From assembly GCF_000024005.1 (NCBI RefSeq), contig NC_013132.1:6194001-6258000 (forward strand): a DNA stretch of 64,000 bases, given 5' to 3'. The notes under the pieces were generated by a model that was not told the origin of the DNA, did no database searches, and was given only the letters and a program-made list of their open reading frames with translations. Below, piece by piece: positions 12,588 through 19,037 of this stretch (position 1 is the stretch's first letter; each line of letters opens with the position of its first letter). The DNA comes from Chitinophaga pinensis DSM 2588. GTDB taxonomy: Bacteria; Bacteroidota; Bacteroidia; Chitinophagales; Chitinophagaceae. The translations under genes were made by a program, and so were the position numbers.

Positions 12588-12869
12588 ATGAAAGCAATCT
12601 GGCACAATGAGGTTATTGCGGAAAGCGACAAAACGGTGGTAGTCGAAAACAATCATTACTTTCCTCCGGCATCGGTAAAACTGGGATTGCTGAATCCTTC
12701 AAACACACATACAAATTGTGCCTGGAAAGGAGAAGCTTCTTATTACGATGTCAATATCAAAGGTAAAGTCAACCACGATGCAGCCTGGTTCTACCCTGCG
12801 CCAAAGCAGGCGGCAGAAAACATCAAAGGCTATATCGCGTTCTGGAAGGGAGTAGAAGTCGTAGAATAA
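12588..12869 (+). CDS. DUF427 domain protein
   Basis: This 93-residue protein matches the DUF427 family over its whole length: MKAIWHNEVIAES at the start, ENNHYFPP, the NTHTNCAWKGEASYYDV core with the conserved Cys and Trp, and AAWFYPAP near the end. The family is a compact beta fold of unknown biochemical role. It is the first gene of a same-strand run with a disulfide oxidoreductase (26 bases downstream), a transporter and ergothioneine genes. Its link to thiol metabolism is by position only. Confidence 0.88.
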   Translation: MKAIWHNEVIAESDKTVVVENNHYFPPASVKLGLLNPSNTHTNCAWKGEASYYDVNIKGKVNHDAAWFYPAPKQAAENIKGYIAFWKGVEVVE

Positions 12870-12895: not shown

Positions 12896-14278
12896 ATGAG
12901 AAAATTTGATGCAATTGTCATTGGCTCCGGCCAAGGTGGTGTTCCTTTGGCTAAAAAGCTGGCTAAAGCCGGCTGGCAGACAGCCATCGTAGAGAAAAGA
13001 TGGATCGGCGGTACCTGTATCAATGACGGCTGTACGCCAACCAAATCAATGATTGCCTGCGGCGCTGCTGCCCATGTCATTGCAAACAGTCAGGAATGGG
13101 GTATCACCGTCAGCGATTTTAAAGTAGATCTTGAAAAGATTGTCCAGCGAAAAAACAAAGTAGTGGAATCCTTCCGTGGAGGTGCTACCAAGGGAATGGA
13201 AAAAACAGAAGGTTTGTCCATTATATACGGAGAAGCCGTATTCACCGGGGAGAAAACACTGAATGTGATCCTGAAGGATGGCGGAGAAGAAGCAATCACC
13301 GCCCCCCACATATTCATCAATACCGGTACCCTTCCCAAAATCCCCCCTGTTCCCGGTCTCGATACGATAAAATACCTGACCAATACCAGCATCATGGAGC
13401 TCACCAAACTGCCCTCCCATCTCGTGATCATGGGCAGCGGATATATCGGCCTGGAATTCGGTCAGTTATTCCGCAGATTGGGGAGTCAGGTAACGATTAT
13501 TGATAGAGGCAAACAACTCTTAAAGCATGAAGATGAAGATGTTGCAGCCGCGGTAAAAAAAGTAATGGAAACTTCCGGCGTCACCATGCATACCGGTGCA
13601 AATGTGCAGAAAGTAGAACAGATCGGCGATACCATCCGACTGCAGTTCACCGCCAACGGAGAAAACCTTACCATCACCGGCTCTCACCTGCTCGTAGCCA
13701 TCGGACGTACCCCACAATCTACCTCTCTGCAGCCTGAAAAAGCAGGACTTGCATTAGATGACAAAGGTTACTTTAAAGTGAACGATCAGCTGGAAACCAA
13801 TGTATCGGGTATCTATGTATTGGGCGACGTAAAAGGCGGTCCCGAATTCACCCACATTTCATACAACGATTACCTCGTTTTGTACAAGAGATTGGTCAAT
13901 AAAGAAGATACATCTATTAAAGATAGACCCGTACCTTACTGCATGTTTACCGACCCTCAGTTAGGACGTATCGGACTGACTGAAAAAGCGGCAAAAGAAG
14001 CAGGATACGATGTGAAAGTTGCCTGCCTCGATATGACGCGGGTAGCCAGGGCCATAGAGACAGGTAACACACAGGGATTTATGAAAGCTGTTATTAATGC
14101 TAACGACGATAAATTACTGGGAGTTGCTATCTTGGGCCCCGAAGGAGGGGAAGTGATGTCGGTAATGCAGATGGCAATGCTCGGAGGTATCACAGCTAAA
14201 CAACTGAGAGAAATGATATTCGCGCATCCACTGTACTCAGAATCAATTAATAACCTCTTTATGACATTGGAAAAATAA
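12896..14278 (+). CDS. FAD-dependent pyridine nucleotide-disulfide oxidoreductase (mercuric reductase-like)
   Basis: The 460-residue protein has the full class I disulfide reductase plan. It starts with FAD-binding DAIVIGSGQGGVPLA (5-19). The redox-active pair is C41 and C46 in GGTCINDGCTPTK. An NAD(P)H motif follows in MGSGYIGLEFG, then the second FAD motif in GIYVLGDVKGG. The C-terminal dimer domain ends in FAHPLYSESINN, carrying the His-Glu acid-base pair. It lacks the heavy-metal domain and the C-terminal Cys pair of true mercuric reductase, so mercury reduction is unlikely. Its place 26 bases after the DUF427 gene and 43 bases before the transporter suggests a low-molecular-weight disulfide as substrate, possibly ergothioneine disulfide. 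That substrate is inference. Confidence 0.85.
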   Translation: MRKFDAIVIGSGQGGVPLAKKLAKAGWQTAIVEKRWIGGTCINDGCTPTKSMIACGAAAHVIANSQEWGITVSDFKVDLEKIVQRKNKVVESFRGGATKGMEKTEGLSIIYGEAVFTGEKTLNVILKDGGEEAITAPHIFINTGTLPKIPPVPGLDTIKYLTNTSIMELTKLPSHLVIMGSGYIGLEFGQLFRRLGSQVTIIDRGKQLLKHEDEDVAAAVKKVMETSGVTMHTGANVQKVEQIGDTIRLQFTANGENLTITGSHLLVAIGRTPQSTSLQPEKAGLALDDKGYFKVNDQLETNVSGIYVLGDVKGGPEFTHISYNDYLVLYKRLVNKEDTSIKDRPVPYCMFTDPQLGRIGLTEKAAKEAGYDVKVACLDMTRVARAIETGNTQGFMKAVINANDDKLLGVAILGPEGGEVMSVMQMAMLGGITAKQLREMIFAHPLYSESINNLFMTLEK

Positions 14279-14321: not shown

Positions 14322-15308
14322 ATGATAAAGCTTGAACGTGTCAACAAATCTTTTCAGAACGGCAAGCCTGCTGTCAGTGATGTGTCTTTCGAGGTCAATA
14401 CAGGAGAAACCCTCGTACTGCTGGGTACCAGCGGAAGCGGGAAGACCACTACCCTACGCATGATCAACAGACTCATAGCACCCGATAGCGGAAAAATATA
14501 TGTGAATGGAGAGGCAGTGACCAACCAGGAGACCACTTCACTTCGTCGTAATATCGGCTATGTCTTGCAGGATAATGGATTGTTTCCGCACTACACGGTC
14601 GCAGAAAATATCGGTATTGTCCCCTCTTTACTCAAATGGGATAAAAAACGCATAGAAGAAAGGACCCGTACACTGATGGAAAAATTGCATCTCCCTCCCA
14701 CCGAGTATTATCATGCTTATCCGCAACAACTCAGCGGCGGACAACAGCAACGTGTCGGACTTGCCCGTGCCCTCGCAGCAGATCCCCCGGTATTACTGAT
14801 GGATGAACCTTTTGGTGCACTGGATCCCGTAACGAGAGCCAGTGTCAGAAAAGAATTCCGCTCACTTGACGAGATCAGCAATAAAACCGTCATCATGGTC
14901 ACACACGATGTACAGGAAGCCTTTCAACTGGGCGACCGTATCTGCCTCATGGATAAAGGAACCATTCAGCAGACCGGCACGCCGGCCGAACTACTGTTCG
15001 CTCCCGCCAATGATTTTGTTATACACTTTTTCCAGGAGCAACGTCTGCTGCTGGAATTGAATGCAGTGAAACTGTCAGATATCCGCACGTTACTGCCGAC
15101 AGACCATGTGACGGAAAAAGGTTCGCCTATATTACCGGAAGACGCCTCCTGCTGGGATGCCTTAGAGCAGATGACCACGCTCTCCAAACCCGTGTATTAT
15201 TCTTTTGATGGCAAGCTCATTCGCATAGACAGCGCCGCGTTGATGCAGGCATTTACACAATACAAGCAAACTATCAGCAGCAATGGAAGATCAACCCGGC
15301 TTTCCTGA
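14322..15308 (+). CDS. ABC transporter ATP-binding protein, likely EgtV-type (OpuCA/ProV family)
   Basis: The 328-residue protein has Walker A GTSGSGKTT (35-43), Q-loop GYVLQDNGLFPHYT, signature LSGGQQQR and Walker B LLMDEPFGALD followed by the switch His in MVTHDVQEAF. The spacing and sequence fit the quaternary-amine (OpuCA/ProV) group. The tail after residue 240 is too short for two complete CBS domains, which osmoregulated members often carry. The gene overlaps the permease/binding-protein fusion by 26 bases, a sign of tight co-translation. In most databases it would be called a glycine betaine ATPase. Its linkage to egtB and egtD makes ergothioneine import, as by EgtV, the better guess. 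Confidence 0.88.
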   Translation: MIKLERVNKSFQNGKPAVSDVSFEVNTGETLVLLGTSGSGKTTTLRMINRLIAPDSGKIYVNGEAVTNQETTSLRRNIGYVLQDNGLFPHYTVAENIGIVPSLLKWDKKRIEERTRTLMEKLHLPPTEYYHAYPQQLSGGQQQRVGLARALAADPPVLLMDEPFGALDPVTRASVRKEFRSLDEISNKTVIMVTHDVQEAFQLGDRICLMDKGTIQQTGTPAELLFAPANDFVIHFFQEQRLLLELNAVKLSDIRTLLPTDHVTEKGSPILPEDASCWDALEQMTTLSKPVYYSFDGKLIRIDSAALMQAFTQYKQTISSNGRSTRLS

Positions 15309-16851
15309 ATTTGTGCAACAACAGGCCGGCAAACTACTGGAACAAACGTTGCAACATATCGGGCTAACATTTATTTCTTTACTGATCGCAGTCGTCATCG
15401 GTGTACCGCTGGGCATACTGATCACCCGTAAAAAAAAGCTGGCAGGCGCCATATTAGGCATTGCCGGCGTTTTACAGACCATACCCAGTATCGCCTTACT
15501 CGGTTTCATGATCCCCCTGCTGGGCATCGGCGCCAAACCGGCGATTGTAGCACTCTTTCTGTATGCACTCCTGCCTATTATCAGAAATACCTATACGGGT
15601 ATCCTGCAGGTAGATCCTACCGTTATTGATGCCGCAACAGGTATGGGTATGAGTCAGCAGCAACTGCTGTTAAAAGTACAACTGCCACTGGCCATGCCGG
15701 TAATACTGGCAGGCATCCGAACGGCAACGGTAATCAATGTTGGCGTCGCTACCCTGGCCGCCTATATCGCAGCAGGTGGTTTAGGTGAATTCATTTTTGG
15801 CGGTATCGCACTCAATAATACCAACATGATACTGGCAGGCGCTATTCCGGCTGCCTTATTGGCCATATTGTTTGATGCAGGTGTGGCACGACTGCAAAAA
15901 CTACGGATGCGAAGCGTCAAAACGGCATTGTATATCTTACCTTTTTTGTTGCTTATCTTATCGTCTTTTTACCTGCTTCCAGCCGCATATGGCAGTAGCC
16001 TCGTAGCCGGATTTACACCAGAATTTATGGGGCGTAAAGATGGAAATCTGGGCTTAAAACAGGTATACGGACTGAATATGCGCACAGTCGTGATCAGCGA
16101 TATGATCATGTATAAAGCGGCTTACGAGAAAACCCTGGACGTCATCAGCGGCAGCAGTACAGATGGCAGGGTCAAGGCTTTTGACCTGCAGGTGCTGGAA
16201 GATGATAAACATATCTTTCCCCCCTACTACGCAGCGCCCATCGCACGGCAGGCCACACTCGATAAGTATCCTGAACTCGCGCCCGCACTAAATAAACTAT
16301 CTGGTATAATTAATGATAGTGTAATGACTGAACTGAACTACAGGGTAGATCACCTGAAACAGGATCCCGCACTTGTAGCCAGTGATTTTTTAAAAGCTAA
16401 AGGATTATTACAGCCAGCCAGAAAAGGTGCTAAAGGAACAGTTGTCATCGGTGCTAAAATATTCGGGGACGGCTACATTCTTGCCAATATGTATAAACTG
16501 CTGGTGAACGGGTATACTGACCTGGAAGCAGTCACAAAAACCGGCCTGGGAGGTACTAAAATCTGTTTTGATGCACTCACCAGTGGACAGATAGATCTTT
16601 ACCCCGAATATACGGGTACCGGTTTACTGGTCATTTTACAGACAGATAAAGCTGTTATCGACTCCCTGATTGCGGACAAACAAAAAGTATATGACTACGT
16701 TTCACAGGCGTTTATACAACAGTACCAGATCAGATGGTTACCTCCTATTGGCTTCAACAACACATATGCATTAATGATGCGCAAACAGCAGGCAGCTGAG
16801 CTGCATATCACATCTATATCAGATCTAAAGGAATATTTACAGCATCACTAA
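15283..16851 (+). CDS. Fused ABC permease and substrate-binding protein, EgtU-like, with permuted binding domain
   Basis: Residues 1-205 of 522 are a permease domain with the conserved loop EAA-like region DAATGMGMSQQQLLLKVQLP (115-134). A last hydrophobic segment (215-235) leads outside to an OpuAC-type binding domain. In usual relatives the binding domain begins with a 'vvIGsK...LGGT..cf.AL.sG.IDLYPEYTGT' half and ends with a 'F..R.DG..GL...YGL...LeDDK..FPPY' half. Here the order is reversed: 240-377 holds FMGRKDGNLGLKQVYGL, STDGRVKAFDLQVLEDDK and FPPYYAAP, and 384-522 holds VVIGAKIFGDGYILANMYKL, GLGGTKICFDAL, IDLYPEYTGTG and GFNNTYAL. The frame is intact, so this is a circular permutation and not a break. 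Only 12 bases separate it from egtB. Confidence 0.88.
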   Translation: MEDQPGFPEFVQQQAGKLLEQTLQHIGLTFISLLIAVVIGVPLGILITRKKKLAGAILGIAGVLQTIPSIALLGFMIPLLGIGAKPAIVALFLYALLPIIRNTYTGILQVDPTVIDAATGMGMSQQQLLLKVQLPLAMPVILAGIRTATVINVGVATLAAYIAAGGLGEFIFGGIALNNTNMILAGAIPAALLAILFDAGVARLQKLRMRSVKTALYILPFLLLILSSFYLLPAAYGSSLVAGFTPEFMGRKDGNLGLKQVYGLNMRTVVISDMIMYKAAYEKTLDVISGSSTDGRVKAFDLQVLEDDKHIFPPYYAAPIARQATLDKYPELAPALNKLSGIINDSVMTELNYRVDHLKQDPALVASDFLKAKGLLQPARKGAKGTVVIGAKIFGDGYILANMYKLLVNGYTDLEAVTKTGLGGTKICFDALTSGQIDLYPEYTGTGLLVILQTDKAVIDSLIADKQKVYDYVSQAFIQQYQIRWLPPIGFNNTYALMMRKQQAAELHITSISDLKEYLQHH

Positions 16852-16863
16852 CCACGAAGGTAT

Positions 16864-18015
16864 ATGCAATTGAAAAATGATTTTAACACCGTGCGGAAAA
16901 GGTCCATGCATATCTGCGCACCCCTGAAAACAGAGGACTATGTGGTTCAGCCGGTCGTTGATGTGAGTCCGCCGAAATGGCATCTCGGACACACGACCTG
17001 GTTCTTCGAAACTTTTCTGCTGAAGCCGCATTTTCCGGGTTACAAAGAATTTGATCCGAACTATAATTTCGTATTCAACAGTTACTATGAAACAGTAGGC
17101 GCCCGCGTGATACGCACAGACAGAGGCAACCTAAGCCGCCCCGCTGTGGAAGACGTTATGCGCTATCGTGAGCATGTCGACAAAGCCATGCAGGCATTCC
17201 TGGATACACCATTGTCTGACGAACTGAAAACACTGGTTGTACTCGGCCTCAATCACGAGGAACAACACCAGGAACTACTGTATACGGACATTAAGTTCAT
17301 CCTGGGGCACAACCCGCTGATGCCCGCCTATTCTGATACGCTGGTCGATAACTACATCGCGCCCGCTACAGAAAAACCATTCGTGGAAATGGAAGCAGGC
17401 CTCTATGACATCGGTTATAAAGGCGACGGTTTCTGTTTTGATAATGAACTGGGCAGACATACCGTCTATCTCCAGCAATATAGCATTGCCTCCCAACCGG
17501 TGACCAACGGAGAATACCTGGAATTCATGGAAGCAGGCGGCTATACAGACTTCCGTCACTGGCACGCAGAAGGCTGGGACTGGGTAAAGAAAAATGAAGT
17601 AAAAGCGCCGCTTTACTGGCATCATGTGGATGGCAAATGGCAACATTATAACTGGCAGGGACTCCAGCCAATAAATGAAAATGAGCCTGTTTGTCACATC
17701 AGCTATTATGAAGCCACCGCTTATGCCGCATGGAAAGGTTTCCGGCTGCCAACCGAATTTGAATGGGAAGCAGCATCGGCACAATTTTCCTGGGGACAAA
17801 GATGGGAATGGACGGAAAGTGCATACCTCCCTTATCCAGGCTTTGTAAAAGCTCCCGGCGCCATTGGCGAATACAACGGCAAATTCATGGTCAGTCAGAT
17901 GGTATTGCGTGGTGGTTCGGAAGTAACGCCTCCCAATCATAGCCGCGATACCTACCGGAACTTCTTCCATCCTTCATTGAGATGGCAGTTTACCGGCATC
18001 AGACTGGCAAAATAA
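16864..18015 (+). CDS. egtB: Ergothioneine biosynthesis sulfoxide synthase EgtB
   Basis: EgtB is a non-haem iron enzyme that joins oxygen, hercynine and a thiol (cysteine or gamma-glutamylcysteine) to form a sulfoxide on the way to ergothioneine. The 383-residue protein has the expected DinB-like helical domain followed by a formylglycine-generating-enzyme-like domain (from about 175, with FRLPTEFEWEAA and LRGGS). The three iron-binding His are H43 in HLGHTTW, H131 and H135 in LNHEEQHQ, matching the HX3HXE pattern. It lies 12 bases behind the transporter fusion and 29 before egtD. It is somewhat short for the family, close to cysteine-using forms. Neither egtA nor egtC is present here, which fits direct use of cysteine. 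Confidence 0.93.
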   Translation: MQLKNDFNTVRKRSMHICAPLKTEDYVVQPVVDVSPPKWHLGHTTWFFETFLLKPHFPGYKEFDPNYNFVFNSYYETVGARVIRTDRGNLSRPAVEDVMRYREHVDKAMQAFLDTPLSDELKTLVVLGLNHEEQHQELLYTDIKFILGHNPLMPAYSDTLVDNYIAPATEKPFVEMEAGLYDIGYKGDGFCFDNELGRHTVYLQQYSIASQPVTNGEYLEFMEAGGYTDFRHWHAEGWDWVKKNEVKAPLYWHHVDGKWQHYNWQGLQPINENEPVCHISYYEATAYAAWKGFRLPTEFEWEAASAQFSWGQRWEWTESAYLPYPGFVKAPGAIGEYNGKFMVSQMVLRGGSEVTPPNHSRDTYRNFFHPSLRWQFTGIRLAK

Positions 18016-18044: not shown

Positions 18045-19037
18045 ATGGCCACCACCTCTGTAATGCATACGGTATTAGTTCCCGTGAAACAGGACCAGCA
18101 GGAAATCTTTTTACAGGATGTGATCCGCGGACTCAGTGCAAAAAATAAGTACCTGGACTCCAAATATTTTTATGATGCCGAGGGCGACCGCCTTTTCCAG
18201 GAGATCATGCGTTGCCATGAATACTACCCGACCAATTGCGAAATGGAAATATTACAGGAACAGTCAGCTGCCATCAGCCAGACCATCCTCTCTTATACCA
18301 ATCGCTTTGATGTAGTGGAACTAGGCGCAGGCGATGCGACAAAGTCCATACACCTGCTCCGGGAATTACTGAACACAGGCAAAGATTTCACCTACTACCC
18401 TGTCGATATATCCGGTAACGTCATTACACAACTGGAGCAGTCTTTACCTTCCCAGTTACCCGCACTGAAAGTGCACGGTTTACACGGCGAATACTTTGAC
18501 ATGTTACAGGAAGCCAACGTGCTCTCTGATAAAAACAAAGTAGTGCTCTGTATGGGTGGCAACATCGGTAATTTCACACCGGTAGAAGCAAGAAAATTCG
18601 CCCGCCAGTTAAGGAACTATCTGCAACCGGGCGACCTGGTGATGATCGGCTTCGACCTGAAAAAACATCCGCAGATTATACTGGACGCTTATAACGACAG
18701 CGCAGGGATTACAAAGGATTTTAACCTCAATCTGCTGAAGCGGATTAACCGCGAACTGGGAGGTAATTTTGATATCACGAAGTTTGATCATTATCCGACG
18801 TACGATCCGGGCACAGGAGCCTGCAAAAGCTACCTGGTAAGTTTGGAAGAACAGGATGTGACTGTCGGCGGACAAACATTCCATTTTGGTCTCCACGAAT
18901 ACATATACATGGAGATTTCGCAGAAGTATGACCTGGAAGCAACAGAGCAACTGGCCGTACAGTCAGGCTTTGAGACGGTGGCTAACTTCTTCGACAACCG
19001 TAAATGGTTTGCAGATAATATGTGGCTTTGCGTATAA
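18045..19037 (+). CDS. egtD: L-histidine N(alpha)-methyltransferase EgtD
   Basis: EgtD adds three methyl groups from S-adenosylmethionine to histidine, giving hercynine, the first step to ergothioneine. The 330-residue product has the SAM loop VVELGAGDATKS (90-101), the HEYYPT tyrosine pair (58-63), N173 in GGNIGNF and the histidine-pocket pair E290 and S292 in YIYMEIS, equivalent to the mycobacterial Glu282/Ser284. Length and order match the family. It is the last gene of the cluster and is followed by a terminator. The lyase for the final step (egtE) is not in the window; another PLP enzyme could serve. Confidence 0.94.
   Translation: MATTSVMHTVLVPVKQDQQEIFLQDVIRGLSAKNKYLDSKYFYDAEGDRLFQEIMRCHEYYPTNCEMEILQEQSAAISQTILSYTNRFDVVELGAGDATKSIHLLRELLNTGKDFTYYPVDISGNVITQLEQSLPSQLPALKVHGLHGEYFDMLQEANVLSDKNKVVLCMGGNIGNFTPVEARKFARQLRNYLQPGDLVMIGFDLKKHPQIILDAYNDSAGITKDFNLNLLKRINRELGGNFDITKFDHYPTYDPGTGACKSYLVSLEEQDVTVGGQTFHFGLHEYIYMEISQKYDLEATEQLAVQSGFETVANFFDNRKWFADNMWLCV

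Follow-up and report, generated by a model that had tools for sequence, protein, structure and literature searches.

Genes at the locus

The stretch of DNA considered here (the window) comprises 64,000 nucleotides of Chitinophaga pinensis DSM 2588 (contig NC_013132.1, positions 6,194,001 to 6,258,000), and one of its genes encodes a permease fused to a substrate-binding domain whose two parts stand in swapped order. The part that is normally N-terminal (DI) comes last and the part that is normally C-terminal (DII) comes first, giving the arrangement permease-DII-DI. The open reading frame (ORF) begins with ATG and runs through 522 codons with no internal stop; the frame is therefore whole, as had been stated in an earlier note on this DNA (the original prediction).

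Upstream of the fusion gene lie the genes of a DUF427 protein, an oxidoreductase, and an ATP-binding cassette (ABC) ATPase, the last of which runs with its 3' end into the beginning of the fusion gene; EgtB and EgtD follow downstream, and all are read in the same direction (Table 1). The BPD_transp_1 permease and the adjoining ProV/OpuCA-like ATPase are parts of an ABC importer of the betaine/choline type. The top NCBIfam match of the ATPase is TIGR01186 proV (301.1 bits, under the model cut-off of 326.6), and all NCBIfam matches shown for the oxidoreductase are below cut-off. In several relatives the DUF427 gene also lies upstream, and in some it heads the conserved cluster. Judging by hydropathy and the full-length model, the anchor helix that precedes DII should position the binding domain outside.

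Table 1. Features of the fusion gene and its neighbours in the window.
Feature	Position	Strand	Evidence
DUF427 (PF04248) small protein	12588..12869	+	Pfam E 8e-34
Flavin adenine dinucleotide (FAD) pyridine-nucleotide disulfide oxidoreductase (PNDR), CINDGC motif	12896..14278	+	Pfam and motif
ProV/OpuCA-type ABC ATPase	14322..15308	+	ORF, Pfam, NCBIfam
Whole fusion gene (permease and permuted binding domain), 522 amino acids	15283..16851	+	ORF, Pfam
Permease core BPD_transp_1, residues 1-205	15283..15897	+	Pfam residues 40-205; helices of full-length model
Membrane anchor helix, residues 209-231	15907..15975	+	Hydropathy; helix 209-231 in full-length model
DII, residues 239-377, normally C-terminal part, here first	15997..16413	+	Pfam, EgtUC alignment, rotation control
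New linker, residues 378-383, old C-terminus to old N-terminus	16414..16431	+	EgtUC alignment
DI, residues 384-520, normally N-terminal part, here last	16432..16842	+	NCBIfam, EgtUC alignment, rotation control
EgtB, ergothioneine biosynthesis	16864..18015	+	TIGR03440 549.5 bits, cut-off 360
EgtD, histidine N-methyltransferase	18045..19037	+	PF10017 E 1e-97; TIGR03438 287.0 bits, just below cut-off 290.9

Order of the two domain parts

The Pfam family of OpuAC/ProX-type binding domains (PF04069) matches the protein in two stretches with 186.7 bits (cut-off 21.2), and the best stretch, residues 236-371, corresponds to profile positions 111-256, so that the second half of the profile comes first. 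Against EgtUC from Streptococcus pneumoniae (9egi), residues 384-517 align with chain residues 5-134, and residues 239-377 with chain residues 138-276. In a rotation control, profiles of natural-order domains were used to score each domain in its actual order and after rotation at the junction, the best single alignment being counted. With the profile of permease-first fusions, the window domain rose from 144.2 to 278.4 bits on rotation, and with that of binding-domain-first fusions from 110.3 to 232.9 bits. The same improvement was seen in all of 133 permuted relatives, with medians rising from 144.7 to 277.3 and from 116.3 to 243.1 bits, respectively; it was seen in none of the 7 permease-first and 35 binding-domain-first natural-order fusions, from which the profiles had also been built and whose own scores are therefore favoured. 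Between the matches of the two domain parts there are 4 residues in 82 of the 133 relatives, and at most 15. The swapped order of the two domain parts in the window protein is thus confirmed, with the cut placed between ISDLK and LVAGFTPEF as originally proposed, and a natural order is ruled out by the rotation control.

Distribution of the swapped order

Systematic genome sampling covered Bacteroidota, with a set of 36 genomes from the genus, a class sample of 396, and a phylum sample of 392 that was searched with the Pfam family. A frame or assembly artefact, or a chance similarity, might be thought to imitate a permutation, and one relative does have its fusion divided over two frames. Nothing of this kind is seen for the window, where the genome is a single contig and the rotation control applies, and a collinear full-length protein of the same order is present in one frame in 33 of the 36 genus genomes (1 has it in two frames and 2 have no match). 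An artefact has therefore been rejected, its probability being negligible. The divided copy (genome G025, locus L094, 8520-10062) lies in two overlapping frames and is the sole such case in the genus.

The fusion was found in 25 of the 396 class genomes. In the phylum sample, the permuted pattern occurs in 23 of 392 genomes and a natural-order match within an open frame of at least 480 amino acids in 34 of 392 (hand count); once fetched, all 34 proved to have the binding domain first (DI-DII-permease). The search of Bacteroidota that the original prediction had proposed thus finds the same order in many other genomes. In a scan of named genomes, the best 80 loci are all permuted and all from Bacteroidota, one of them (L164) having DII divided into two matches.

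Three protein searches (two with permuted queries, one with a rotated query) were each taken to the best 120 of 6,088 to 7,965 matches and pooled to 266 proteins. DII precedes DI in 266/266 of the matches listed: the architecture is permease-DII-DI in 262 and permease-permease-DII-DI in 3, and the remaining 1 is a DII-DI fragment; since such best-120 lists favour permuted relatives, they give no information on how common the natural order is. The query turned to natural order was aimed at neighbours of that order, but it too brought up permuted proteins, since each piece scores whichever of them comes first. A search with a divergent member as query (best 120) included proteins labelled Geitlerinema, Baaleninema, Microcoleaceae, KSB1, Aminicenantes, Scalinduaceae, and Thermodesulfobacteriota, these names being source labels only, several of them from metagenome-assembled genomes. 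The permuted clade is therefore mostly from Bacteroidota, with some proteins labelled as cyanobacteria, KSB1, and others.

Two natural-order architectures were also found. Seven permease-first natural-order fusions were obtained from plasmids, whose hosts are Firmicutes, a fusobacterium, and a cyanobacterium (best 40 of 1004 plasmid records, of which twelve were fetched). The third architecture, DI-DII-permease (G202 at locus L055, L188-L205, L213-L227, L250), is common among the phylum's other families and occurs also in Gemmatirosa; in 33/35 of these fusions there is an N-terminal hydrophobic segment, and 6-23 residues lie from DII to the permease. The order that the original prediction regarded as unusual for an EgtU-like fusion is therefore real, but it is the standard, clade-defining trait of its subfamily and not a peculiarity of one protein.

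Phylogeny and origin of the permuted clade

The main trees were based on permease and binding domain, with the parts joined in natural order for every row and the rows thinned by hand: one tree of 57 rows (27 permuted) and one of 62 rows (37 permuted). The 57-row tree and the single-domain trees were built without L247, L250, L253, L255, and the stand-alone permeases of the phylum, and the 57-row tree also without L252. Permuted fusions form one clade in both trees (support 99/96 and 97/95, respectively). This clade groups with the permease-first natural-order fusions (100/99 and 90/78); its nearest relatives are two divergent permease-first fusions in the 57-row tree (95/83), with no resolution in the 62-row tree. 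Single-domain trees are weaker, with support of 88 and 89 for the permuted grouping.

The permuted form could instead have been derived from the DI-DII-permease fusions, which occur in the same phylum and one of which (G202) has a permease 55% identical to that of the window. Such a descent is improbable, since these fusions form a clade of their own (100/99, and 90/78 with L250 added), apart from the permease-first fusions with which the permuted rows group. Moreover, no rotation of DI-DII-permease can yield permease-DII-DI, and the event therefore occurred within the binding domain. Most likely there was a single permutation in a permease-first natural-order ancestor.

A permease-DI-DII-DI-DII intermediate was absent from the 266 listed proteins, the three long ones being permease-permease-DII-DI. 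These three (P0070, P0087, and P0155; 779-805 amino acids) carry two tandem permease copies and a single permuted binding domain. As P0070 together with P0087 is separated from P0155 in the 62-row tree, the doubling of the permease may have happened twice.

Cut site, lobes, and tether

The EgtU paper (PMC9732360) gives the lobe limits of EgtUC as 233-331 and 445-506 for D1 and 341-432 for D2. When these are carried over by the sequence alignment to EgtUC, lobe 1 of the window protein maps to about 317-378 and 383-485, the hinge strands to about 305-316 and 486-494, and lobe 2 to about 239-304 and 495-520. By this mapping, the swapped ‘halves’ would differ from the two lobes and the cut would fall inside lobe 2, so that lobe 2 holds both termini while lobe 1 is continuous. 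The tether would accordingly enter lobe 2 in the window protein, as opposed to lobe 1 in EgtU. A simple hydropathy count gives a short spacer between the last hydrophobic segment and the binding domain whichever the order, with 1-9 residues in the 7 natural-order permease-first fusions and 2-7 residues in 106/133 permuted ones. It had been suggested that the permutation would place both the membrane linker and the hinge differently; the mapping agrees for the linker, whereas the hinge should stay where it is in space.

Association with ergothioneine genes

Neighbouring genes were counted at 70 named loci, after the 10 of 80 with less than 3.5 kb on one side had been left out. EgtB and EgtD are same-strand neighbours, no further than 5 kb away, at 50 of the 70, among them Chitinophagaceae (12/12), Sphingobacteriaceae (27/28), Weeksellaceae (8/8), and Spirosomataceae (3/5); they are absent as neighbours in Cytophagaceae (0/4), Hymenobacteraceae (0/9), Lewinellaceae (0/1), Fulvivirgaceae (0/1), and two unplaced loci (0/2). 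They are also neighbours in 26 of 36 further genome regions (35/36 permuted; 6 proteins shared with the named set). At the genome level, an EgtD homologue was defined as a match to the EgtD of the window at E of 0.001 or less (weakest in the class sample, 165.7 bits). With carrier and EgtD counts taken as covering the same 396 class genomes, a homologue is present in 25/25 carriers as compared with 56/371 non-carriers (Fisher p 2e-19, uncorrected for relatedness), as well as in 64/64 carriers of a partly overlapping set chosen for carriers. It is missing in the two genomes of the same genus that lack the transporter and in the DI-DII-permease genome G202. In C. pinensis itself, a second EgtD homologue (C1:5540293-5541210, minus strand; 56% identical) lies away from the cluster.

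The importer thus appears to be tied to ergothioneine makers, and its putative ligand is probably ergothioneine, hercynine, or a related betaine. The FAD oxidoreductase with a CxxxxC motif is a candidate ergothioneine-disulfide reductase; none was found near the Weeksellaceae loci (0/8). In the window this gene is part of the cluster linked to egt genes. On plasmids of Leuconostoc and Liquorilactobacillus, a distant relative (27-29% identity) follows an EgtU-type transporter (L254 4511-5494; L256 3970-5010). A DUF427 protein is also encoded on a Rhizobium plasmid, next to a separate ABC transporter of the betaine type (L255 5244-5528).

Residues of the binding pocket were surveyed in the 133 distinct permuted fusions, with window positions taken from the EgtUC alignment. 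The EgtU residues K242, T275, T296, N339, Y341, E375, R379, and Y443 are kept in the window protein as K392, T425, T446, N493, Y495, E247, R251, and Y315, and among the 133 fusions in 132, 133, 133, 133, 131, 132, 131, and 133, respectively. In EgtU, these residues hold ergothioneine by its carboxylate, imidazole, and amine; K242, T275, T296, E375, and R379 make contact with the carboxylate and imidazole. The cage residue Y419 is S291 in the window protein; across the survey the site has Y in 101, S in 30, and F in 2. The S is found in 30/98 egt-linked permuted fusions and 0/35 others, and was seen in rows of the same genus.

Proposed function and its alternatives

Taken together, the gene is best explained, with a probability of about 0.82, as coding for a quaternary-amine importer whose tethered binding domain is circularly permuted inside lobe 2, as in the rest of one large clade. 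It would form the membrane half of an ABC importer, consisting of the permease, one anchor helix, and the tethered periplasmic binding domain, and the complete importer would comprise two fusion chains and two copies of the upstream ATPase. The permuted form may have had a single origin in a permease-first natural-order fusion. On general grounds, the simplest route would be a tandem duplication of the binding-domain segment followed by loss of the outer pieces, by which permease-DI-DII-DI-DII would become permease-DII-DI. Pocket and hinge would remain unchanged in space, and the tether would pull on lobe 2 instead of lobe 1. Since the fusion travels with egtB and egtD, it may import or recapture ergothioneine or hercynine in Chitinophaga and its relatives, which is a weaker part of this proposal. 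More tentatively still, a lobe 2 permutation at the same site may have arisen at least twice in betaine-binding domains and been fixed here in a tethered salvage pump of ergothioneine makers with its own disulfide reductase.

Several observations weigh against parts of this explanation. In the trees, the binding-domain tree with stand-alone outgroups, whose rows were likewise thinned by hand, puts the natural-order L250, on a long branch, among the permuted rows (when restored in the 62-row tree, it falls outside the permuted clade), and the first permease tree sets a haloarchaeal permease, also on a long branch, within them. As to the ligand, G244, F293, and Y337 of EgtU are F394, Y443, and F491 in the window protein (across the survey, the first site has F in 129 and Q in the other 4 fusions, the second Y in 133/133, and the third F in 133/133). 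The label ‘EgtU-like’ therefore holds for the overall sequence but not for these specificity residues. G244 and the Y-to-F switch are named as determinants of ergothioneine affinity in the EgtU paper, which describes other subclusters of its network as being without them; the Helicobacter pylori transporter from such a subcluster still contributes to ergothioneine uptake, with lower affinity (PMC9732360).

The gene might thus code for a general importer of osmoprotectants (glycine betaine, choline, or similar) that came to lie in an egt operon by chance. F/Y/F at the three sites is the pattern of AfProX (PMC9732360), the top NCBIfam matches are glycine-betaine and choline models, though far under their cut-offs, and this is the sole PF04069 match found in the genome. 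The tie to EgtB and EgtD at both gene and genome level, and the retention of the five carboxylate- or imidazole-contacting residues in 131 to 133 of 133 fusions, make such an importer unlikely, although it is the most serious of the alternatives.

Comparison with known systems

In chain order, the window domain is structurally closest to Bacillus subtilis OpuAC (PDB codes: 2B4L, 2B4M, 3CHG, and 5NXX), a separate, unfused binding protein that shows the same DII-DI order with nearly the same ends, while by sequence the window domain belongs with EgtU/OpuBC/ProX. Inheritance from a permuted ancestor common with OpuAC might be suggested by this likeness. However, OpuAC is 15% identical in structure and does not appear in the PDB profile search at E up to 10, in which the natural-order EgtUC scores 262.7 bits, and permuted rows stand among natural-order domains of the EgtU/ProX kind in the trees, which were made without OpuAC. 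Common descent was rejected on the structural identity and the missing profile match, the latter being no proof by itself, and is very improbable.

Lactococcus lactis OpuA (7AHC; domain 3L6G) is a permease-binding-domain fusion whose permease is matched by sequence; its binding domain, which has the natural order, is barely matched (E 0.0043). The DI-DII-permease fusions of the phylum's other families and Gemmatirosa join the same domains, but with the binding domain first and in natural order. Treponema pallidum MglB-2 is reportedly a sugar-binding protein of divergent topology, from a paper mentioning circular permutation (PMC4990184). Archaeoglobus fulgidus ProX (1SW1 and relatives), a stand-alone protein, matches the profile in two pieces with 206 bits but has the natural order. 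It shares the F/Y/F pocket pattern with the window protein (PMC9732360).

EgtU of S. pneumoniae and other Firmicutes is, like the window protein, a permease-binding-domain fusion with a separate ATPase, and EgtUC is 44% identical over half of the domain with most pocket residues kept. It differs in its natural order DI-DII, its tether on lobe 1, and the presence of G244, F293, and Y337; moreover, it is reported from Firmicutes as an uptake system (PMC9732360), whereas the window fusion sits with egtB and egtD.

Circular permutation among glycine-betaine-binding proteins was already reported with CPSARST (PMC2395249). The precedent of OpuAC and ProX cited in the original prediction is sound. 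Among open-licence PMC papers (at most 20 listed per search), none was found that describes a permease fusion permuted in this way, and none that mentions ‘Chitinophaga pinensis’ together with ‘ergothioneine’. Each component has a precedent, namely the fused permease, the permuted betaine-binding domain, and EgtU itself; their combination, and how widely it occurs, was not found in the searchable papers. Annotation that is blind to domain order conceals a whole clade, and the finding draws attention to a transporter and a reductase linked to ergothioneine in those Bacteroidota that have egtB and egtD. Since both orders occur in homologous tethered importers that can be aligned with confidence, it can be tested directly how the choice of tethered lobe affects docking, closing, and transport, and the two kinds of fusion, if the proposed reading is true, provide a natural experiment on whether the tethered lobe matters for docking and transport.
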